Shown piece by piece: positions 34,651 through 63,426 of a stretch of 64,000 nt of DNA. The stretch comes from a virus. A program made the position numbers and the translations under genes. The notes below the pieces were generated by a model. The model was given only the letters and a program-made list of their open reading frames with translations. It had not been told where the DNA came from and ran no database searches. Numbering within the stretch: the first letter of the stretch is position 1; every line of letters starts with the position of its first letter. The stretch lies in the IMG/VR virus record IMGVR_UViG_3300042868_004707, positions 51,250-115,249 of that record. One strand, written 5' to 3'.

Positions 34651-35142
34651 ATGAGTGAAACAACAACAAGTATTTTTAGTTTTGACCATGGTCAAAAGAA
34701 ACTTCACAAAGCAATCGGTGTAGAAGATTCTTATTTAGATGATTTACAAGAACAAATTGGTGATGTGTTAAAAGATTATCTATTTGATGAAGATAGAAAC
34801 ATCAAAGATGATTTGTCACCAAGTGGACTAGTAGAAAAATGTCTTCATGAATTTAGTTATAACCAATTGGTTATAATGGCATCATTCTTCTTACAGAACA
34901 AGTTAGATGATTTTGCACAAAAGATGCATCAAAAACTTGAAGGAGCAGTTAAAAAGATTGCATTAGATGCAGATGATGTTCCTGAACATATTAGAGAGTT
35001 TCTTATGAATCTTGCTAAAGATGGACAAGGAGACAAAAAAGCAACTGCTGTTAGAGGTGAAGATCTTCCACAGGAGATTAAAGATTTTCTTGATGATCTT
35101 GCTCGTAAATCAGAAGATGCAGAAGATGATGATGAAGACTAA
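34651..35142 (+). CDS. Hypothetical acidic protein
   Basis: 163 aa from the Met at 34651 (MSETTTSIFSFDHGQKKLHK), chosen because the leader ATTCCTTAATAACAAACAAAATG sits right before it. It is helical, with two similar segments (DVPEHIREFLMNLAKDG and DLPQEIKDFLDDLARKS) and a C-terminus of Glu and Asp. Function unknown. Confidence 0.6.
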   Translation: MSETTTSIFSFDHGQKKLHKAIGVEDSYLDDLQEQIGDVLKDYLFDEDRNIKDDLSPSGLVEKCLHEFSYNQLVIMASFFLQNKLDDFAQKMHQKLEGAVKKIALDADDVPEHIREFLMNLAKDGQGDKKATAVRGEDLPQEIKDFLDDLARKSEDAEDDDED

Positions 35143-35188
35143 TCCAACACGTAGAAATCTATCTGGTATATACATATTTGATGAATAA
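35132..35188 (+). pseudogene. Truncated 5' copy of the gene at 35877
   Basis: Eighteen codons, MKTNPTRRNLSGIYIFDE then stop. RRNLSGIyIFD matches RRNLSGIFIFD at the start of the intact gene after the GIY-YIG endonuclease. It is the leftover front of a gene broken at the endonuclease insertion point. Confidence 0.7.
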
Positions 35189-35203
35189 TTTTTACTATCT
35201 TTA
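35178..35203 (+). promoter_or_regulatory. Possible promoter of the GIY-YIG gene
   Basis: TATCTTTA lies 18 bases before the start; a TTG is 15 bases upstream, shorter than the 19-21 seen at other sites, so this one is weaker. Confidence 0.4.
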
Positions 35204-35221
35204 CACCTAAAAGTAAAAGAT

Positions 35222-35872
35222 ATGAAAAGTGGTGTATATGTTATTAGAAACTCATTCAATAGTAAGATTTATGTTGGAAGTTCTGTTTATATTAGAAATA
35301 GATGGTCTTCACATAAAGGAGAATTGATTAAGAAAACTCATCATAATACTCATCTACAAAGATTTGTAAATAAAAATGGTTTTGAATGTTTGATATTCGA
35401 AGTGTTGGAGTTTTGTCCTATAGAAGATTTGTTAATAAGAGAACAATTTTATATGGATAAACTAAATCCTTCTTTTAATTTAAGAAAAGTTGCAGAATCT
35501 AATTATGGATTAAAAAAATCAGAAGATTGTAAAAGAAAAATTGGTTTAGCTCATAAAGGAAGAAAGCAAACAGAAGAACATAGAAGAAAAGGAAGTATTT
35601 CTAAAACAGGAATAAAACAATCAAAAGAAACTATTGAGAAGAGAGTTAGTAAATTACGTAACATACCTAGAACACAAGAAGTAAAAGATAAAATTTCTTT
35701 AAGTAAATTTAAATCAGTATGTCAATATACTCTAGAAGGAGATTTAATAGAATGTTTTGATTCAATTCAACATGCTAGAGAAAAATATCCTATAGGAGGA
35801 ATGCACATTACTTCTTGTTGCTCAGGTAAAAGAAAATCTGCATGTGGATTCACATGGAAATATAATATATGA
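35222..35872 (+). CDS. GIY-YIG homing endonuclease (SegD/I-TevI type)
   Basis: 216 aa. The catalytic domain starts SGVYVIRNSFNSKIYVGSS, the GIY...YVG motif, with RNRWSSH and a later EQFYMDKLNPSFN. Residues about 95-160 hold NUMOD3-type repeats (SEDCKRKIGLAHKGRKQTEEHRR), and the C-terminus a NUMOD1-like helix-turn-helix (IQHAREKYPIGGMHITSCC). It splits a small gene whose front is duplicated on both sides. Confidence 0.92.
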   Translation: MKSGVYVIRNSFNSKIYVGSSVYIRNRWSSHKGELIKKTHHNTHLQRFVNKNGFECLIFEVLEFCPIEDLLIREQFYMDKLNPSFNLRKVAESNYGLKKSEDCKRKIGLAHKGRKQTEEHRRKGSISKTGIKQSKETIEKRVSKLRNIPRTQEVKDKISLSKFKSVCQYTLEGDLIECFDSIQHAREKYPIGGMHITSCCSGKRKSACGFTWKYNI

Positions 35873-35876
35873 AATA

Positions 35877-36113
35877 ATGAGTAAAGAAATCAAAAGAAGG
35901 AATTTGTCAGGTATTTTTATTTTTGACATTTTACCAGGCGATGAGAAAAGACAACCTACATGTTTTGAAGATTGTACAGAAGAAAAACAAGATGAATGGT
36001 TAGAAAGTTTATCTCCTGAAGCAGTTAAGAGTCTTTCTAAGCAATTAGCAAAGACATTAAGAACTATTGGTGATCAGTTTGACATCATTGCAGGATATGA
36101 AGAAGAAGAATAG
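35877..36113 (+). CDS. Hypothetical small protein, intact copy beside the GIY-YIG insertion
   Basis: 78 aa from the ATG at 35877 (MSKEIKRRNLSGIFIFD). An upstream in-frame ATG lies inside the endonuclease gene and is not chosen. Acidic helical C-terminus. Its N-terminus is duplicated at 35132. Function unknown. Confidence 0.6.
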   Translation: MSKEIKRRNLSGIFIFDILPGDEKRQPTCFEDCTEEKQDEWLESLSPEAVKSLSKQLAKTLRTIGDQFDIIAGYEEEE

Positions 36114-38973: not shown

Positions 38974-39080
38974 AGTCAGGTGGCGGAATTGGTATCGCAC
39001 TCCACTTAACTGGAAAGTATTGTTTCGACACAATTAATCAGGTGAAAGGCACCATACAGGTTCAAATCCTGTCCTGACTA
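38974..39080 (+). tRNA. Second tRNA-Leu-like element with an extra hairpin
   Basis: Acceptor AGTCAGG/CCTGACT pairs fully. The D arm GGCGGAATTGGTATCGC is Leu-type, the variable arm GGTGAAAGGCACC is normal for class II tRNA, and the T arm ACAGG TTCAAAT CCTGT is perfect. The anticodon arm CTCCA CTTAAC TGGAA has a six-base loop holding TAA, one base short. An extra hairpin ATTGT/ACAAT (about 20 nt) sits between it and the variable arm, giving 107 nt. It may be a nonfunctional, inserted or specialised Leu(UAA)-like tRNA. Confidence 0.55.
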
Positions 39081-39214: not shown

Positions 39215-39814
39215 AACGAGTACTTCACAACCTACTGTAAAAATAATGGGGCTAACAGGTTTTGACAGGTTACCAGTAATTAATACAATCAGCCAGAGAG
39301 ATAACTGTAAACTAAGATGAATATAATTAAATGGCAAAAACACAAACAGTGTAGTATCTCAAGGAGACAACGCACAAATCGTAGCTAACATGACTGTAGT
39401 ACATAACATCTTAAATGGTGGTATTAAAGTTAAATCAAATGACATTATTGAATTTGAATTAGCAGCCTAAATTAAAGATTTCTCTGTTAGATTAAACAGA
39501 GTGGTGGTTTCTCGATTGTTTATCAGTCGATCCTAGTTGTATGATACTCCAACTTTAAAACCGTATCAAAAAAGCTGTATAAATTGTATTTTTGAAAATA
39601 ATTTTGGACGAGGGTTTGGAAATTGGACCCATTACATAGGAATATGTAATTAAAAATTGCTTGAATTGCTGGAACGCTAAGTTACACCTGCGAGGGTAAT
39701 ATGCCAATCAGCAGCCAAGCTCACTGGAAGAAGTGAGAAGGTTCAGAGACTAGGGACACTACGGTGAGCCCACAGTAAGCAACATCTAGAACAGATGATG
39801 ATATAGTCCGATCC

Positions 39815-40234
39815 CTACAGAAATGTAGGAAGAAAGAATAGTCTCTCGTAGGCTAACTTTCTTGTAACTTGTTTGTCTGTGTATTTACCATTACGAATGG
39901 TAACTGCATCATGGTATTTTAAGACTGTATTTATACGATGTAACTTTTTAGGATGATGAGAATCCAGAAGTCTACAAAGTTTCAAACATTCTTGATTACT
40001 ATTACAAGATAAAGAATAACCAATATTATGGTTTTTTTTTCTAGAAGGTTTTTTTGACATATAAGTTTTAATACTATGTTCATCTAACAAATATTTTTGA
40101 ATCTCTTCAAGAATTGTTATATAACAGTTAGTAAAATCTATTTTGATGCATTTATAAGTATCATTTTTAGAACTTTTACTCATAGTAATTGAACCATCAG
40201 CATCAAAAAAGCCTGAAATGTATTGTAGTGTCAT
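39815..40234 (-). CDS. LAGLIDADG homing endonuclease, antisense inside the tmRNA intron
   Basis: 139 aa. One LAGLIDADG motif, ISGFFDADGSI at residues 6-16, so it should act as a homodimer. GYSLSCNSNQECLKLCRLL follows as the usual second half of the fold. It is read against the intron and tmRNA, and its stop lies within the intron's P9 hairpin. It would cut intron-less ssrA T-loop alleles to spread the intron. Its own promoter is at 40259-40289. Confidence 0.9.
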   Translation of the reverse strand: MTLQYISGFFDADGSITMSKSSKNDTYKCIKIDFTNCYITILEEIQKYLLDEHSIKTYMSKKPSRKKNHNIGYSLSCNSNQECLKLCRLLDSHHPKKLHRINTVLKYHDAVTIRNGKYTDKQVTRKLAYERLFFLPTFL

Positions 40235-42750: not shown

Positions 42751-43050
42751 ATGAAAGATGAAGAACTAATAGATAAAGAATTTGAATTCTTTAAATATGA
42801 AACTGTCAAGCATCTTACTTGGGAAGATAGTTTTGAAAAGTATATAGGAATTAGATGTAAAGTATTAATTGTAAATCCTTCATTTAAACATCTTGTTAGA
42901 TGTCAAGTTTATCCATGGATAGGTAAAATGTTTATAAAACACTTTCCAAAAGAATTAGTTATAGAGCAAATTGAGAAAAAAGAAAGAGAGAATATGTCTA
43001 TTGATGATATTCTCTCTGAAATGAAACAATTAACATCAAGAATAATATGA
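42751..43050 (+). CDS. Hypothetical protein
   Basis: 99 aa: DEELIDKEFEFFKYETVKHLTWEDS, then YIGIRCKVLIVNP, and a helical end. Its stop overlaps the start of the truncated gene at 43047. Function unknown. Confidence 0.5.
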   Translation: MKDEELIDKEFEFFKYETVKHLTWEDSFEKYIGIRCKVLIVNPSFKHLVRCQVYPWIGKMFIKHFPKELVIEQIEKKERENMSIDDILSEMKQLTSRII

Positions 43051-43112
43051 GTATAGAAAAAGAATTTATACCTTACGAACAAGCGTTAGCTTTAAAAGAA
43101 TTAGATAAATAA
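43047..43112 (+). pseudogene. Truncated 5' copy of the gene at 43718
   Basis: 21 codons, MSIEKEFIPYEQALALKEL then DK stop. FIPYEQALALKEL corresponds to FVPYQIALDMKSI at the start of the intact gene after the HNH insertion. The endonuclease promoter begins two bases later. Confidence 0.7.
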
Positions 43113-43113
43113 T

Positions 43114-43144
43114 TTGTAAAACTTTTAAAAATTACTTATCTTTA
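43114..43144 (+). promoter_or_regulatory. Promoter of the HNH gene
   Basis: TTG, 20 bases, TATCTTTA, 20 bases before the start at 43165. Confidence 0.7.
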
Positions 43145-43164
43145 CAGAAATAAAAACATTTATT

Positions 43165-43716
43165 ATGGAAAATTGGAAAGAAATTAAAGGTTATGAAGGA
43201 AGATATGAAGTTTCTAACAAAGGAAAAATAAGAAGTTTAAATTACAGAAACCAAAAGGGTCTTATTAAAGAAATGACACCTTCTTTATCTAATGTAGGGT
43301 ATTTGATGTTTCCCTTACCTTTTAATAAAAAACAGAAATCTGTATGTGTACACAGAATTGTTGCAGAAACTTTTTTAGAGTTGCCTATTGATTTTGATGT
43401 TGTTAGATATACTGTAAATCATATTGATGGAGATAAGTTAAACAATAATGTTTGTAACTTAGAATGGATGACTTATTCTGAAAATAACAAACACTCTTAT
43501 CAAACTCTTGGAAAAACAAGTGGAATGAAAGGAAACAAATTTGAAAAATCAAAATTATCTAAAAAAGTTACAGCGTATAGTGATGATATGTCTTTTGTTA
43601 AAACCTATAATTCTACAACAGAAGCGTTTTCAAAAGATGGATATACTTCTTCAGGAATATCTCAAGCAGTAAAAAATAAAAATAAATATAAAAAACTAAA
43701 TTGGAAATATGAATAG
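43165..43716 (+). CDS. NUMOD4-HNH homing endonuclease
   Basis: 183 aa. NUMOD4 ENWKEIKGYEGRYEVSNKGKIRSL at the start, HNH core VNHIDGDKLNNNVCNLEWM near 88-106, then a NUMOD1-like C-terminus (AYSDDMSFVKTYNSTTEAF). It has its own promoter and splits a small gene whose front is duplicated on both sides. Confidence 0.9.
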   Translation: MENWKEIKGYEGRYEVSNKGKIRSLNYRNQKGLIKEMTPSLSNVGYLMFPLPFNKKQKSVCVHRIVAETFLELPIDFDVVRYTVNHIDGDKLNNNVCNLEWMTYSENNKHSYQTLGKTSGMKGNKFEKSKLSKKVTAYSDDMSFVKTYNSTTEAFSKDGYTSSGISQAVKNKNKYKKLNWKYE

Positions 43717-43717
43717 T

Positions 43718-44047
43718 ATGAAAAGTAATTTTGTACCATATCAAATAGCTCTTGATATGAAGTCGATTGAATTTGATGAACCTTGTTTTGGTTATTATAC
43801 TGGAGATAAAATGCATTTAGTAATTAGACCTGCAATGAGCAGAACAAATATTCCTGATAGTTATGTAGTTACTGCACCACTTTACCAACAAGCATTTAGA
43901 TGGTTTAGAGAGAAGCATAAATCAAAATTTATATTATCTGAAGACTATTATTGGATAATAGGAATTGGTCAAATAAAAGTAAATTCTTACGAAGAAGCAG
44001 AACTTGAATGTTTGAAAAAACTAATAGAAATAGTAAAAGAGAAATAA
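43718..44047 (+). CDS. Hypothetical protein, intact copy beside the HNH insertion
   Basis: 109 aa from the ATG at 43718 (MKSNFVPYQIALDMK); an ATG three codons earlier lies inside the endonuclease end. FDEPCFGYYTGDKMHLV and the YYWIIGIGQIKVNSYEEAELECLKKL end suggest a common phage hypothetical. Its N-terminus is duplicated at 43047. Confidence 0.6.
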   Translation: MKSNFVPYQIALDMKSIEFDEPCFGYYTGDKMHLVIRPAMSRTNIPDSYVVTAPLYQQAFRWFREKHKSKFILSEDYYWIIGIGQIKVNSYEEAELECLKKLIEIVKEK

Positions 44048-44466
44048 TGTGGTATCCAGCTGAAATATCATTATCAAGCTACCTACCTCCTGAATTGGAG
44101 ATAGGTATGCTTTTTATCAACAGAATATCTGTTGGTGTTATAGAGCCTTATATTGAGTTATTTGAGCTAGAAGAACTGCCAGAAGATGCTGATGCATTTA
44201 TGGCCAAACATGGTGCTCCTGTAGAAATAGCAATCATTGATGAAGATGATGACATACTTGCTTCACATGATGAAATAGGTTGGTGGGATGATGGAGATGA
44301 TGTAGATGAATACAGAGAAATTACGTTAGATGATATCAATTATATATTAAGAGAACTTGATGGGTATGTTGATATAGAATATGATGAAGTAGAAGATGAT
44401 TTTGTAGTAATTGATGACAAAGTGGTATTATCAATTGTACCAGAAGAAGAATTTGAAGAAGAATAA
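44047..44466 (+). CDS. Hypothetical acidic protein
   Basis: 139 aa from the ATG at 44047, overlapping the previous stop by one base. Extremely acidic (IDEDDDILASHDEIGWWDDGDD). Such charge could mimic DNA, but no known inhibitor family was recognised. Confidence 0.55.
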   Translation: MWYPAEISLSSYLPPELEIGMLFINRISVGVIEPYIELFELEELPEDADAFMAKHGAPVEIAIIDEDDDILASHDEIGWWDDGDDVDEYREITLDDINYILRELDGYVDIEYDEVEDDFVVIDDKVVLSIVPEEEFEEE

Positions 44467-50125: not shown

Positions 50126-50803
50126 ATGAAAAAGATTGATATTACCGATTTTATTGGTACGAAACACAATAGACTTACAATACTAAAAGAAGTAGAACCT
50201 ATTTTATATAAAAAAGGAGCAGCTAGAAGAGTATTATGTAAGTGTGATTGTGGTAAAGAGAAAGTTATAGATTTCAACTCTATAAGAACAAGTAAAAGTA
50301 AGTCTTGTGGATGCTTAAGTAAAGAAATATCTACTAAACTACATACTAAACATGGTCTAGCAATGTTATCTACAGGAATAAGACATCCTGACTATTGTAT
50401 TTGGATGAAAATGAAATCAAGATGTTTAAATCCTAATGATAAATCTTACAAAAACTATGGTGGTAGAGGTATTAAAGTTTGTGAATCTTGGCAAAAATCT
50501 TTTACATCATTTATAGATGATATGGGATGGAGACCAAATAACAAATATTCAATAGAACGAATAGACTATAACGAAGACTATTGTCCTGATAACTGTAAAT
50601 GGATTCTTAAATCAGAACAAACTAAAAACTGTAGAAGAGTAAAACTTATTGCTTATAATGGTAAAGAACATTGTCTAACTGATTTATGTAAACTGTTAAA
50701 TTTACCTTATTCTACAATGAGACATAGAGTTTATGATCTTGGTATTCCATTTGAAGAGGCTGCAAAATATCCTCAACATTATAAATTTAAAAAATATGAG
50801 TAA
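50126..50803 (+). CDS. HNH-like/AP2-associated mobile endonuclease
   Basis: 225 aa. An N-terminal zinc knuckle (CKCDCGKEK, CGCL) is followed by NYGGRGIKVCESW and YSIERIDYNEDYCPDNCKWI, the pattern of phage HNH-type proteins often listed with AP2 domains. The end (LCKLLNLPYSTMRHRVYDLG) is a helix-turn-helix. It has its own promoter and overlaps the helicase start by eight bases. A homing endonuclease is likely; the catalytic residues are less certain than in the other HNH proteins. Confidence 0.7.
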   Translation: MKKIDITDFIGTKHNRLTILKEVEPILYKKGAARRVLCKCDCGKEKVIDFNSIRTSKSKSCGCLSKEISTKLHTKHGLAMLSTGIRHPDYCIWMKMKSRCLNPNDKSYKNYGGRGIKVCESWQKSFTSFIDDMGWRPNNKYSIERIDYNEDYCPDNCKWILKSEQTKNCRRVKLIAYNGKEHCLTDLCKLLNLPYSTMRHRVYDLGIPFEEAAKYPQHYKFKKYE

Positions 50804-51875
50804 AAGTATTAGAGACCTCAGACAGGAGGAATTTGCAAAAGTTTGGCTTAAAAGTAAGCATGGGATACTCTTGCTCGCTCCTAGGTTCGGGAAATGTAGA
50901 ACTAGCATACATGCTTTAGCTAAGCTTAAACCTGAGAGCATATTAATTGCCTATCCAGATAACAAGATTAAAGAATCTTGGCAAGCTGATTTTGAGGAGC
51001 TAGGTTTTGATGACAGCATTGTCACATATACAACCCATCTATCTCTAAAGAAGTATGCTGATCAGAGCTTTGATGTTGTTATTATTGATGAGATACATCT
51101 ATTGAGCGATGCTCAAATAGAAGTGTGTAAGGACCTGTTCGATGTAAATGGACAGATTCTTGGTCTAACTGGTACATTATCCAGTTGGACAGAACGAACC
51201 CTTGAAGAAGAATTAGATCTTCATGTAATAGCTACCTATCCAATTGAAAAAGCAATTGAGGAAGGAGTTATTGTAGATTATGAAATCCATGTTATCAGAG
51301 TGCCATTAGATAATGTTACAATGCAAGATTACAAAGGAAAGCAAAAGACTGAAAAGAAACAGTTTGATGCTCTAACTTGGGTGATTAATAAACTGCAGAA
51401 TAGCGGATCTGATACAATGTTTATGCGTCTTGCTAGAATGAGACTAATACAATCATCATTGGCTAAAGTGAAAGCAACCAAAGCATTACTTGCCAAACAT
51501 GCTGATGAGAGAGTGTTAGTGTTCTGTGGTGTTACCAAGATAGCTGACAACTTAGGAATTCCTTCCTATCATAGCAAATCAACTGAGAAACAACTCTTTG
51601 AGGATTTTGCTGAAGGTAAAGGTAATCACCTGGCTGTTGTGAAGATTGGTAATACAGGTGTTACGTTTTCAAAGTTAAATAGAGTTATAATAAATTCTTT
51701 TGATTCAAATCCTGAAAATCTTACACAAAGAATATTTAGATGTATGGCAATGGATTATGATAATTTAGAAAAAAAAGCGTATATTTGCATTGTTAGTACA
51801 ACAGAACCTATTGAGTTAAAATGGTTATCTAACGCATTAAGTGCATTTGATTCATCAAAAATAAAATATGTATAA
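50796..51875 (+). CDS. SF2/SNF2-like helicase
   Basis: 359 aa from the ATG at 50796 (MSKSIRDLRQEEFAKVWL). Motif I APRFGKCRTS near 27-36, motif II IIDEIHLL near 94-101, motif III LGLTGTLSSW near 127-136, and late motif NLTQRIFRC near 325. The lower GC of the last 70 codons compared with the front may reflect gene conversion around the next endonuclease. It may work in replication or repair. Confidence 0.8.
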   Translation: MSKSIRDLRQEEFAKVWLKSKHGILLLAPRFGKCRTSIHALAKLKPESILIAYPDNKIKESWQADFEELGFDDSIVTYTTHLSLKKYADQSFDVVIIDEIHLLSDAQIEVCKDLFDVNGQILGLTGTLSSWTERTLEEELDLHVIATYPIEKAIEEGVIVDYEIHVIRVPLDNVTMQDYKGKQKTEKKQFDALTWVINKLQNSGSDTMFMRLARMRLIQSSLAKVKATKALLAKHADERVLVFCGVTKIADNLGIPSYHSKSTEKQLFEDFAEGKGNHLAVVKIGNTGVTFSKLNRVIINSFDSNPENLTQRIFRCMAMDYDNLEKKAYICIVSTTEPIELKWLSNALSAFDSSKIKYV

Positions 51876-56799: not shown

Positions 56800-57162
56800 A
56801 TGATTTTAGAAAAACAGAAAGAAGCAAATGTCCTAATTGATGGACAATCACAAGAATCAATTGGAATGTCACTAGACTTAGATAGTGCACAGATTCTTAT
56901 GCAAATGTTAAGTAAGAACTTATATTCAGATGATATAGGTTCTGCTATTAGAGAATGTGCATCTAATGCATTAGACAGTCATAGAAGAGCTGGTGTTGAT
57001 GAACCAATTGTGGTGTCATTCAAGCCATCATCAGCTAACAACTATGAATTCTGTGTAGAGGATTTTGGTATTGGTTTAGATGCTGATGATGTAAAGAATA
57101 TCATCAGTAAGTATGGTAAGTCTACCAAACGTGATTCTGCTACAGAATTAGGTATGATGGGT
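56800..57162 (+). CDS. rIIA: rIIA-like protein, exon 1 (GHKL ATPase N-terminus)
   Basis: 121 codons before the intron. N-box IRECASNALDSHRRAG near 49-64 and G1 box VEDFGIGLD near 86-94 of the GHKL ATP-binding fold are present. The exon ends on a complete Gly codon, GGT, at 57162. Read on into the intron, the frame stops within four codons. T4 rIIA is a membrane-associated factor that affects exclusion and lysis; a similar role here is by family analogy. Confidence 0.85.
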
Positions 57163-57219
57163 CAACAAAACTAGGCCCAGCGTAAAAGTAATTTTACGTT
57201 AAAAATATTGGATGAATTT

Positions 57220-57249
57220 TTGGAAATCTAAATTAAATTATTAACTTTG
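57220..57249 (+). promoter_or_regulatory. Promoter of the intron endonuclease
   Basis: TTG, 19 bases, TAACTTTG: exact fit, 20 bases before the start at 57270 and inside the intron. Confidence 0.7.
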
Positions 57250-57269
57250 TAACCTAAACATAACACACC

Positions 57270-58031
57270 ATGGGATACAAGTACAAAGTTAATCACAATT
57301 ATTTCAATATAATTGACACAGAATACAAAGCTTATATTTTAGGTTTTATATATGCTGACGGTTGCATATCACAACCTTCAGGTAATAGAAAACTTAATCT
57401 CAGAATAGGAGTTCAAGAAGAGGATGGTTATATTCTTGATGAATTATCTAGAGAAGCTGCAGGAGGACAAAAAAATATTGTTAATACTCCTTCAAGTATT
57501 AAAAAAGGTTATAAACCTCAACATTGTGTCAATATAGTATCAAATCTAATAGGTAACAACCTAATTGATTTAGGATGCAACATCAATAAAAGTAAATTAG
57601 GAATGACTTTTCCTAAACTAGAAAAACATTTAATACCTCATTTCATTAGAGGATTTTTGGATGGTGATGGAAGTGTAATATTGAAAAAATTACAATATAA
57701 GTATATTAGAAAAACTAATCATAGTATTTTTAAACCACATAAACAACAGTATAAACTTAAATTAGCTTTTTGCTCAACCGATAAAGAATTTCTATTAGAA
57801 ATAGCAAAATGTTTAAATATAAGTAAACCTTACATAACTGAAAAAGTTAGAAAACAGGTTAATTATATATTGTGGATAGAAAATAAACAAGAAGTTTTAG
57901 ATAGTATAGATTATTTGTATAGTGATGCTACTTATTTTCTTAAAAGAAAATATGACAAAGTAGTAGAATTTAACATGACAATCAAAAGCGAAGCTGAAGA
58001 TACATCTTCAGAACGTTTAGAGACTACCTGA
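57270..58031 (+). CDS. LAGLIDADG homing endonuclease of the rIIA intron
   Basis: 253 aa with two motifs, YILGFIYADGCIS near 23-35 and FIRGFLDGDGSV near 125-136, so it can act as a monomer. It is in the sense direction and its last codons overlap the intron core (strand of P7). It would cut intron-less rIIA alleles. Confidence 0.9.
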   Translation: MGYKYKVNHNYFNIIDTEYKAYILGFIYADGCISQPSGNRKLNLRIGVQEEDGYILDELSREAAGGQKNIVNTPSSIKKGYKPQHCVNIVSNLIGNNLIDLGCNINKSKLGMTFPKLEKHLIPHFIRGFLDGDGSVILKKLQYKYIRKTNHSIFKPHKQQYKLKLAFCSTDKEFLLEIAKCLNISKPYITEKVRKQVNYILWIENKQEVLDSIDYLYSDATYFLKRKYDKVVEFNMTIKSEAEDTSSERLETT

Positions 58032-58157
58032 GCAGTAAAGTCTGCTTAATAACAGGAAGTAGTATGGGTTAGTAACCATATGAAAAAGCGTCCAACCCCT
58101 ATTTATAGGGTGATGATATAGTCCGACACTCTGGGAAACCAGAGATTAACAGAACCG

Positions 58158-60128
58158 CTAGGTTTTAAAGCACCTCTTGCATACTCTAGTAGTTTCTACT
58201 TTGTATGTAGAAAGAATGGTATGGAACGTAAGTACATGATGTATGAAGGAGAAGATGCTAACACCATCGATCTTTTACACGAAGCACCTACAACAGAGAG
58301 AAATGGTGTAAAAATTATAATTCCTGTTAAGTACAGTGACAAATGGCAATTCCACAATAAGATAAAGGAACAACTTTGTTATTTCGAGAGTGTGTATTTT
58401 GATGTACCAGAAGATCCATCTGTCAATAATGAATTCATTATTACAAGACATGAGCACTTTCAATTTTCTGAAATGTCTACAGATAACAATTTACACATAT
58501 GTTTAGACAATGTGTATTATCCATTAGACTTTGAAAAATTAGGTATGGATAGAATTCAATTTCCTATTGCTCTTAGGTTCTCTTTGAGTGATGGAATCTA
58601 TCCCACGCCTAACAGAGAATCATTACGCTACACCCAAGAGGCAAAACAAATCATTATGCAGAAGTTTATGGATGTGGCAAACTATTTTGTTGCTAAGTAT
58701 AATGAAACTGTTGAAGAGGGTACTGATATCAAGTCTGTCATAAACTATCTTGAGAAGAATGGATATTATTTAACTATGGAGAATGAAGCTAAATATAGAA
58801 TCGATCCATTTGTACCATTCTCTACAATTAAACCAGCTATTCCTCAATTAGATGGAGTTAAACTTTTGGATTTTCCAAGTCTTTACAAAAGAACAAAGCA
58901 ATATTTATTGGCTAATGATTTTAAATGTAAATACTCTTTGAGATATAAGAGAATGCATGATATGGAAAAACATTATGTCTATGGATTTAACATTGAAAAT
59001 GTTTGTAATGGTATCGCTAATGTGTATATTTACGAAGATAGAATTGCTGGTATCAAAAAAGATTATCTAAGAGCTACATGTAAAGAAAGTGATTACAATT
59101 TCTTTGTTAAACCAGCTAAACCTATGACACTTGGACATACTTCTAAATATGACATACGTACATATTATCATATGTTAGAACTTAAGAACTATCCAAAAGA
59201 ACAATGGAGAGATGTTATTAAAGAATATCAACACGTTATGTCTTTGATTAGTGCAAACTTCATAGATTTAGATGCATTTGAGGTGCCACAATGGTTTATC
59301 GATAGCAAGAAAAAGATTAAACCTACAGTTGTTGGAACTGGTGGTGCTCCTGGTGTAAGAAAAGTTAAACTTAAAGGAGAAATTGTTGGTAAAGAAGCTG
59401 ATGATCTTCAGAAATGGAGCTATGGTAGATGTTGTAAATTTGTTCCTATAACATATAAGTTAGAGAAATTAGAATCTGATAAGAATCTGAAAGTGTATGC
59501 ACATCATGATGAATATATGAAGCTTGATGCTTTATTTGGTTGCATACAAAAACAAAAGATGAAAGTGGTTACATTCTCTCAAAGAGAATTAGCTATTGTA
59601 AAAAATTCTGAAATACACAACTTAATATCATTAGAACAATTTATGGAAGGAAAAAACAAACCATTCAAACGTATGGCTACAGCTTATCTAATCAAAAAGA
59701 TGATGGAGAAATACAGATCTACGTTTGACAGATCACTTCAAGTGGGATTCACGTCTTCGCCTTTAAAAGATAGACTACATGTATTATCTAAGTATGCATC
59801 TGACAACTATTATCTACCTGGTTATTCAGGAGGAAGTGCTGGAGCTAGAGAATTCTTAGAATCTATGTTAGCAGTGGCTGAAGAACACAAGTTGTTTGAT
59901 ATGACAATCTATCCTGAAGTGATGGAAATGCAAGAGATATTTGATAAGCTTCCTTTCTTGAATCCTTTTATGACAGGAGTAGGATATTATGATGACAAAA
60001 ATCCTCTTGTAAATGTACTATCTGATCTATTCAAATATTACAGATATAGAGTGGATCTTAAACACTACAACATTAAACTTAATGATGAAGTGTTAACTGA
60101 AGAAACAATAGAAGAATTAGTAGATTAA
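58158..60128 (+). CDS. rIIA: rIIA-like protein, exon 2
   Basis: 656 codons from CTA at 58158, in frame with exon 1 after intron removal, giving a 777-aa protein. It opens LGFKAPLAYSSSFYFV, the continuation of the GHKL lid where T4 rIIA-like proteins read GSKSPFAY. FPIALRFSLSDGIYPTPNRESLRY near the exon's residue 150 supplies the transducer-like region. The first in-frame ATG is 21 codons in, so without splicing only a headless protein would be made. It stands before rIIB. Confidence 0.85.
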   Translation, partial: LGFKAPLAYSSSFYFVCRKNGMERKYMMYEGEDANTIDLLHEAPTTERNGVKIIIPVKYSDKWQFHNKIKEQLCYFESVYFDVPEDPSVNNEFIITRHEHFQFSEMSTDNNLHICLDNVYYPLDFEKLGMDRIQFPIALRFSLSDGIYPTPNRESLRYTQEAKQIIMQKFMDVANYFVAKYNETVEEGTDIKSVINYLEKNGYYLTMENEAKYRIDPFVPFSTIKPAIPQLDGVKLLDFPSLYKRTKQYLLANDFKCKYSLRYKRMHDMEKHYVYGFNIENVCNGIANVYIYEDRIAGIKKDYLRATCKESDYNFFVKPAKPMTLGHTSKYDIRTYYHMLELKNYPKEQWRDVIKEYQHVMSLISANFIDLDAFEVPQWFIDSKKKIKPTVVGTGGAPGVRKVKLKGEIVGKEADDLQKWSYGRCCKFVPITYKLEKLESDKNLKVYAHHDEYMKLDALFGCIQKQKMKVVTFSQRELAIVKNSEIHNLISLEQFMEGKNKPFKRMATAYLIKKMMEKYRSTFDRSLQVGFTSSPLKDRLHVLSKYASDNYYLPGYSGGSAGAREFLESMLAVAEEHKLFDMTIYPEVMEMQEIFDKLPFLNPFMTGVGYYDDKNPLVNVLSDLFKYYRYRVDLKHYNIKLNDEVLTEETIEELVD

Positions 60129-62319: not shown

Positions 62320-62553
62320 ATGAAGAACGCAATAACAATAAACAAAACTCCCTCATTCAATGAGGTGTGGCATGAAGGCCACATAGAACATGAAGGTAAA
62401 TATCACTATTTCTGGTTAATACATCCACAAGGATTAGATGACAAAGGTGAAGCATATTCTTGCGAGGTACGCTGGTTTTTTCAAAAAGTTCCTAAACAAG
62501 TTAGAGATCTATATCCAATAATAATAGAAAGTTTTATGCAAACTTTACGATAA
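62320..62553 (+). CDS. Hypothetical protein, duplicated in part after the GIY-YIG gene
   Basis: 77 aa: FNEVWHEGHIEHEGKYHYFW, then VRWFFQKVPKQVRDLYPIIIE. The last 28 residues recur after the endonuclease at 63325. Function unknown. Confidence 0.55.
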   Translation: MKNAITINKTPSFNEVWHEGHIEHEGKYHYFWLIHPQGLDDKGEAYSCEVRWFFQKVPKQVRDLYPIIIESFMQTLR

Positions 62554-62609: not shown

Positions 62610-62741
62610 ATGAAAAATGAAGAAACTATCTTACTTCGTATAAATGGAGAAGTAAAAGAAAAATTAGTTAGAAAAGCTGAATCGCTAGGACTTAGTCTAT
62701 CAGCATATATTAGATTGATTATTATTCAAGACTTAATGTAA
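62610..62741 (+). CDS. Ribbon-helix-helix-like mini-regulator
   Basis: 43 aa: ETILLRINGEVKEKLVRKAESL, then GLSLSAYIRLII. One short strand plus two helices is the RHH/CopG plan. Its stop overlaps the GIY-YIG start, so it may repress the shared promoter and limit the endonuclease. Confidence 0.6.
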   Translation: MKNEETILLRINGEVKEKLVRKAESLGLSLSAYIRLIIIQDLM

Positions 62742-63328
62742 TGATAGGAATTTATAAAATAACAAGTCCTACTGGTAGAGTTTATATTGGACAAAGTTGG
62801 AACATCGAAAGAAGATTTAAACAATATAAGAAATCTTTAGGTGCTAAACAAATAAAACTATTTAACTCTATTAGTAAACATGGTATTGAATCTCATGTAT
62901 TTGAAATTATACATGAGTTTTTAGAACAAATTGATCAAAAGACTTTAGATGATCATGAAATTTTATATTGGAATCAATATAAAAATTTAGGAATTGATGT
63001 TTTAAATACTAGAGAACCAGGAAAAGGAGGAAAACATTCTGATGAAACTAAAAAGTTGATGTCTGAATGGCAGATTGGAAAAGTTTTATCTTCTGAAACA
63101 AAAGATAAAATTTCAAAAGCTCATATAGGAAGAATTGCTTGGAACAAAGGATTAAAACATTCTCAAGAAACTAAAGATAAAATATCTCTAGCAAATAAAG
63201 GTAAAAAGCATTCACAAGAAGAAATTGATAAAATGTCAAAAGCTTTAAAAGGAAGAGTTTTTTCTGAAGAAACTAGAAGAAAAATATCTGAAGCTAAAAA
63301 AGGAACAAAATATAAAACAAAATTATGA
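62741..63328 (+). CDS. GIY-YIG homing endonuclease
   Basis: 195 aa. IGIYKITSPTGRVYIGQSWN at the start (GIY and YIG), RRFKQYK, then EILYWNQYKNLGIDVLNTREPG as the catalytic Glu region. Residues about 100-190 are NUMOD3 repeats (DETKKLMSEWQIGKVLS; SQEEIDKMSKALKGRVFS). It is coupled to the RHH gene and flanked by copies of one phage gene segment. Confidence 0.92.
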   Translation: MIGIYKITSPTGRVYIGQSWNIERRFKQYKKSLGAKQIKLFNSISKHGIESHVFEIIHEFLEQIDQKTLDDHEILYWNQYKNLGIDVLNTREPGKGGKHSDETKKLMSEWQIGKVLSSETKDKISKAHIGRIAWNKGLKHSQETKDKISLANKGKKHSQEEIDKMSKALKGRVFSEETRRKISEAKKGTKYKTKL

Positions 63329-63426
63329 AAGAACAATTAGAAGTGAGATGGTTTTTCTCAAGAGTACCAAGAGAGGTGAGAGCATTATATCCACAAATTA
63401 TAGAAGCATTTAAACAAACATTATGA
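63325..63426 (+). pseudogene. 3' fragment copy of the gene at 62320
   Basis: 33 codons: MKEQLEVRWFFSRVPREV, then ALYPQIIEAFKQTL. It parallels the end of the 77-aa protein (VRWFFQKVPKQVRDLYPIII). It keeps an ATG overlapping the endonuclease stop, so it may still be translated. Confidence 0.65.

Follow-up and report, generated by a model that had tools for sequence, protein, structure and literature searches.

The window analysed here, a stretch of 64 kb, is the last part of a virus record of 115 kb. Its PHROG family matches include large terminase, portal and capsid genes, its DNA polymerase matches a phage DNA polymerase family and, judged by gene content, we take it for a putative crAss-like phage of Bacteroidota. 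Endonuclease-like genes are spread across it (n=11, several of them labelled by reading the sequence only). One of these genes, at the locus that we call site 2, lies between an upstream neighbour of 99 amino acids, u99 (42751..43050), a native flank 92% and 91% identical to its counterparts in L092 and L094, and a downstream neighbour, d152 (44047..44466), whose start is nearly identical to that in L126. Between both neighbours, and like them on the + strand, are an orphan native 5' fragment of a gene, which reads MSIEKEFIPYEQALALKELDK and a stop (43047..43112), the endonuclease gene (43165..43716) and an intact gene starting at 43718. The fragment is a 21-codon ORF with its own stop and overlaps the stop codon of u99. 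In the intact gene, which we call the target gene, a replacement 5' end, MKSNFVPYQIALDMKSI (43718..43768), is followed by a junction codon (43769..43771) and by the gene body (43772..44047), which overlaps d152 through the sequence TAATG.

According to its Pfam and PHROG matches, the site 2 endonuclease, of 183 amino acids, is a NUMOD4-HNH_3 homing endonuclease, both domains scoring above their curated cut-offs (NUMOD4, PF07463, 8.8e-12, 45.5 bits against 23.4; HNH_3, PF13392, 2e-7, 30.9 bits against 24.8). Ahead of the gene, at 43113..43144 on the + strand, stands the putative promoter TTTG-N20-TATCTTTA, which we take to be of the Bacteroidota promoter type. The window has 18 copies of this pattern (6.4 expected), a number that 0 of 100 shuffles reached, and several of the copies stand in front of endonuclease genes. 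The first-pass annotation had placed the stop of the fragment two bases before this promoter; the promoter-like stretch is there, but the spacing is not, as it starts directly after the stop.

That annotation had also described the HNH gene as lying between a gene start that ends in a stop and an intact gene, and we found the same. Scored against a 20-residue profile of the family N-terminus, the fragment reached 30.7 bits, and comparison of one flank of the endonuclease with the other at the protein level gave a score of 49, where 100 shuffles reached 33 at most. On its two sides the endonuclease has two versions of one and the same gene end, as have the mORFs discussed below. Among the family loci compared, no start other than the fragment lacks a body. 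The fragment shares a ATGAGTATAGAAA start and 88% DNA identity with the intact gene in L131, the 19-mer AATAATATGAGTATAGAAA was confined, among the loci compared, to the window and the corresponding locus of L131, and a scan of IMG/VR for fragment-type starts returned the contig of L131 alone. Since the intact gene of L131, at the corresponding locus, is the only other holder of this start, the comparison shows the fragment to be the start native to the locus. An unrelated, independent upstream gene is excluded by the profile score together with the L131 start.

Fragment and intact gene might also be read as the exons, or the remnants, of a degenerate or cryptic intron, and a group I intron does match elsewhere in the window (39606-39830). 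However, splicing would be superfluous, since the fragment closes with a stop and the gene behind the endonuclease is complete and has a start codon, and a gathering scan of 43047-44047 gave no Rfam match to a group I or group II intron. We regard this explanation as highly improbable. An intein was rejected as well: the fragment ends in a stop, the ORFs are separate and the Pfam matches include no splicing domain.

The intact gene belongs to the same unnamed family as the fragment, for which 430 candidate stretches were confirmed in IMG/VR. Family members vary strongly in the middle, between DNA blocks conserved at either end, and their start blocks are exchanged at one codon. They are found on hundreds of phage contigs, often in tandem; members were examined near 5001 in L003, L010, L004 and L007 and near 2270 in L009. 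The core start block of the window's intact gene, FVPYQIALDMKSI, has 61% DNA identity to the native fragment, while the first 17 codons of the gene match the beginning of an intact gene in L007 at 94%. Past the switch codon its best DNA match, over 43771-43918, is L002 (85%), which has an ALALKEL-type start. We place the left boundary of the insertion at 43104..43105, after the TTAG of the conserved Leu-Gly codons, where the DNA matches of the fragment to intact family members end (at base 43104 in 25 of the 25 best matches listed). The junction codon on the other side is GAA (Glu), where the other distinct family starts (91 of 91) all have Gly, and this unique Glu falls at the very codon where fragment homology ends. 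Elsewhere in the family, L007 and L009 are 45% identical up to the Gly codon and 99% identical over the 80 bases that begin with it, and the start block is strongly different in five of ten family pairs with near-identical bodies. We read the switch codon as a probable recurrent break point.

The main rival explanation at site 2 is a truncated tandem paralogue. The ancestor would have held two complete copies; copy 1 would have been cut by the insertion or by a later deletion and copy 2 left untouched. The target family does often form tandem arrays, of two to five copies (L007, L015, L025, L051, L070), L007 has both start types in neighbouring tandem copies and L116 has two copies at the locus. 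Under this explanation, however, it would be a coincidence that the fragment ends at the codon of the unique residue, and the syntenic loci L003, L010, L052 and L131 are single-copy here. We consider it rather unlikely, also in view of the two further sites described below.

Ordinary mosaicism has to be weighed too. The endonuclease and the complete downstream gene would then have arrived as one block with a chance breakpoint, the endonuclease having no causal part. The interval from u99 to d152 differs among relatives and family members freely exchange segments, as this explanation would have it, but the boundary coincides with the codon at which start types are switched elsewhere in the family. 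L092 and L094, whose polymerases (98% and 95%) make them the nearest relatives to have this region, carry no gene of the target family between the same neighbours. It is therefore by analogy with the other sites, together with the boundary, that we take the body of the site 2 gene to be probably native. More distant relatives with the same gene order (L003, L010, L123 and L131) carry a gene of the target family.

No second copy of the site 2 HNH element was found, its nearest relatives being 38% identical, and the left-junction pattern had no match in a scan of IMG/VR. Among named phages there was no near relative of the target gene, the endonuclease or the polymerase. Several candidates for a donor form were rejected. 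L058 has a GIY-YIG gene directly before an intact family gene, without a fragment, and L059 and L060, which show upstream similarity to an endonuclease tail, have a short ORF in which no endonuclease domain was seen. The extended DNA similarity of L022 into the endonuclease tail proved to be AT-rich non-coding background. A 118-aa gene absent from the window had been suspected of removal by the element; L126, with the same downstream gene start, is also without it, and its loss is probably not due to the element.

Site 1 (35132-36113) had been reported to repeat the arrangement with an endonuclease of an unrelated family, and it does. There, on the + strand, an orphan native 5' fragment, MKTNPTRRNLSGIYIFDE and a stop (35132..35188), is followed by a GIY-YIG endonuclease gene (35222..35872; Pfam GIY-YIG, 3.5e-12) and by an intact gene (35877..36113). 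Empty loci are present as L173 and L181, on the contigs of L092 and L094, so that empty and filled loci could be compared. At the DNA level the fragment matches the native start of L173 at 98%. In its start the intact gene is 62-65% identical to L173/L181 (62% to L173), and its nucleotides 91-190 are 98-100% identical. Compared with the empty L173 gene, the two flanks of the element joined together are 94% identical and the unaltered intact gene 84%. The comparison shows a short foreign end, the first ~51 nt, in place of the cut-off one on a native gene body. To the right of the junction, ~35 bases are identical to those of a third phage, L172, as a short conversion tract would be expected to give. 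The same filled locus is present in a second contig, L171.

Site 3 is the mirror image of sites 1 and 2: here the 3' end is replaced, on a body consistent with a native one. Its intact gene (62320..62553, + strand) has had its last ~28 codons, from 62464, replaced by a sequence 65% identical to the native 3' end of the orthologue. Downstream, on the same strand, are a GIY-YIG endonuclease gene (62741..63328; PHROG homing endonuclease, 1e-34) and an orphan native 3' fragment (63340..63426), whose DNA is 94% identical to that of the native 3' end at G001:830-1057. Those orthologues that were readable end like the orphan, unlike the intact gene of the window. A small ORF (62610..62741, + strand), labelled CopG-like by reading the sequence only, is possibly part of the element. 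The ends of the L092 contig (L245 and L246) carry one empty and one filled site 3; either a second copy or a population of mixed alleles might account for this.

These sites bear on both rivals of site 2. The same arrangement occurs at sites 1 and 3 in genes that are single-copy in relatives, which argues against a truncated tandem copy. Moreover, unrelated endonucleases stand at other genes in the same design and with native bodies, which argues against a chance mosaic block; we think that mosaicism is improbable. They also modify the earlier proposal that conversion swaps in the gene copy of the donor so that the target is not lost. The target gene is kept whole, as the sequences support, and replacement does take place. 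It does not involve a whole copy where an empty locus allows the comparison: at site 1 only a short diverged end is foreign on a native body, and at site 3 the replacement concerns the 3' end, on a body consistent with a native one.

To see how often the arrangement recurs, the flanks of 95 distinct endonuclease genes were compared over all loci, with one shuffle per gene as the null (maximum 40). Flank duplication was well above this maximum at sites 1-3 or their copies, in L100, L125, L105 and L114, and at a small gene in L010. L206 and L108 scored just above it, probably by chance. The 3' end of a DnaB-like helicase carries the arrangement in L100 (4917-5930) and L125 (5962-7162) and, on inspection, also in L105; the 5' end of a second helicase carries it in L105 and L114 (12208-13337). 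The two helicase-site elements of L105 (11363-12580 and 13297-14426) lie within ~3 kb of each other. At the second helicase, L105 and L114 are 99.8% identical in the endonuclease and 100% in the replacement start, with an identical leader, versus 87% in the native fragments, 86% in the upstream flank and 91% in the body. Here the replacement end travels with the endonuclease and the fragment belongs to the recipient. The sister sites together show new ends that appear to travel with their endonucleases while the gene bodies stay native. Gene-end replacement affects three of the eleven endonuclease-like genes of the window and several more in relatives, which supports the earlier suggestion of a mechanism common to unrelated endonuclease families.

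Two further helicase loci deserve mention. In L127 (12277-13290) a native helicase start fragment and a replaced start enclose ordinary small genes, without an endonuclease, and the site has perhaps lost it. In the window, an endonuclease-like gene (50126-50803) precedes a helicase gene (50796-51875) without a leftover fragment, and the helicase has a replaced-type start, MSKSIRDLRQEEFAKVWLKSKHGILLLAPR, common to L092 and L131.

We think it likely that a mobile element, built around a homing endonuclease and replacing the end of the gene it invades, occupies site 2. In this element, a stop codon and a leader resembling a promoter would precede the HNH endonuclease gene, and a diverged version of the target's first 17 codons would follow it. 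The predicted cut target is most likely the stretch of conserved KELGFDEP codons of the family. Repair of the break from an element-bearing genome would copy the element into it, leaving the native start stranded as an orphan fragment and fusing the element-borne start in frame to the native body. On the side without homology, the ends may first have been joined by, for example, end-joining at the cut. The target protein would thus be kept, and the different DNA spelling at the cut site should block re-cutting. The proposed cleavage position, resistance, homing and native body at site 2 come from sequence comparison; for cutting, resistance and transfer we also draw on knowledge of the enzyme family. 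Two further observations count against this reading: the replacement start type is present in intact genes without an adjacent endonuclease (L007, L022, L027), and the fragment in L127 is followed by other genes and not by an endonuclease.

With somewhat less confidence, we also favour the existence of a class of phage homing elements in which endonucleases of unrelated families carry diverged replacement 5' or 3' ends for the conserved genes that they cut, helicase genes included, and could thereby persist in important genes without intron or intein. If this is true, gene ends would be replaced continually by homing, and alleles would diversify at the cut sites as a result. Since empty and filled loci exist in public contigs, the cut site, the resistance and the conversion are directly testable.

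Selfish endonuclease genes are thought to need an intron or intein, an intergenic gap, or a gene whose splitting is tolerated. In synthetic cleave-and-rescue and homing-rescue drives, a nuclease that destroys a sequence is coupled to a recoded version of it that resists cutting. Such drives are engineered, whereas the recoded piece in these phages appears to be a natural divergent allele and its resistance is putative. The phage HNH endonuclease that splits a nucleotide reductase gene, presumably Aeh1 MobE, resembles the site 2 element in being inserted in a phage gene without an intron. There the halves work as separate peptides, whereas the target gene here is restored to one piece. The sections searched of a study on phage nuclease genes at recombination boundaries, which also notes that reductase-splitting endonuclease (PMC10448857), do not describe gene-end replacement.

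The free-standing endonucleases of T4 offer a parallel in their way of spreading. According to the sections available of PMC2988022, these enzymes (SegA/uvsX, SegE/uvsW, SegF/gene 56, SegG/gene 32) practise intronless homing, adjoin the gene they cut and spread by break repair with flanking conversion. The same sections have them between complete genes, with neither an orphan gene end nor a chimeric target described, and call seven free-standing T4 enzymes promoter-less, whereas the elements here carry a promoter-like leader. The same design is held by the mobile ORFs (mORFs) with a foreign gene end of fungal mitochondria, known from Glomus atp6, atp9, cox2 and nad3 and from Allomyces macrogynus atp6 (PMC3630166). 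In both systems an endonuclease gene comes with a diverged target end, fused in fungi and at site 1 to the native body, and the orphan native end lies beyond the element. Compared with the gene of a relative, the native ends in fungi are 91-98% identical and the inserted ends 64-81% (PMC3630166). However, fungal mORFs replace the C-terminal ends of mitochondrial genes and encode LAGLIDADG or GIY-YIG enzymes; the phage elements have HNH or GIY-YIG enzymes and often replace 5' ends, for which a new start codon is also needed.

In the literature searched, which left most subscription papers outside, we found no description of gene-end replacement in phages. Here it is seen repeatedly within one phage group, at 5' as well as 3' ends and with enzymes of more than one family. 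These phages appear to hold a further solution, in which the endonuclease brings the replacement end with it, as a natural counterpart of cleave-and-rescue drives. Replacement ends would also explain the foreign look of some phage genes at their start or end.

Two other regions of the window stand out. A tRNA match of unusual length (38974-39080) is followed by the group I intron match mentioned above, beside which a LAGLIDADG-like ORF (39815-40234) lies on the opposite strand. A LAGLIDADG gene (57270-58031) apparently splits an ATPase-like gene, whose N-terminal part is at 56800-57174 and whose remainder starts at 58221; no Rfam intron match was obtained in this region (56800-60128). Promoter-like sequence is present in front of this LAGLIDADG gene as well.
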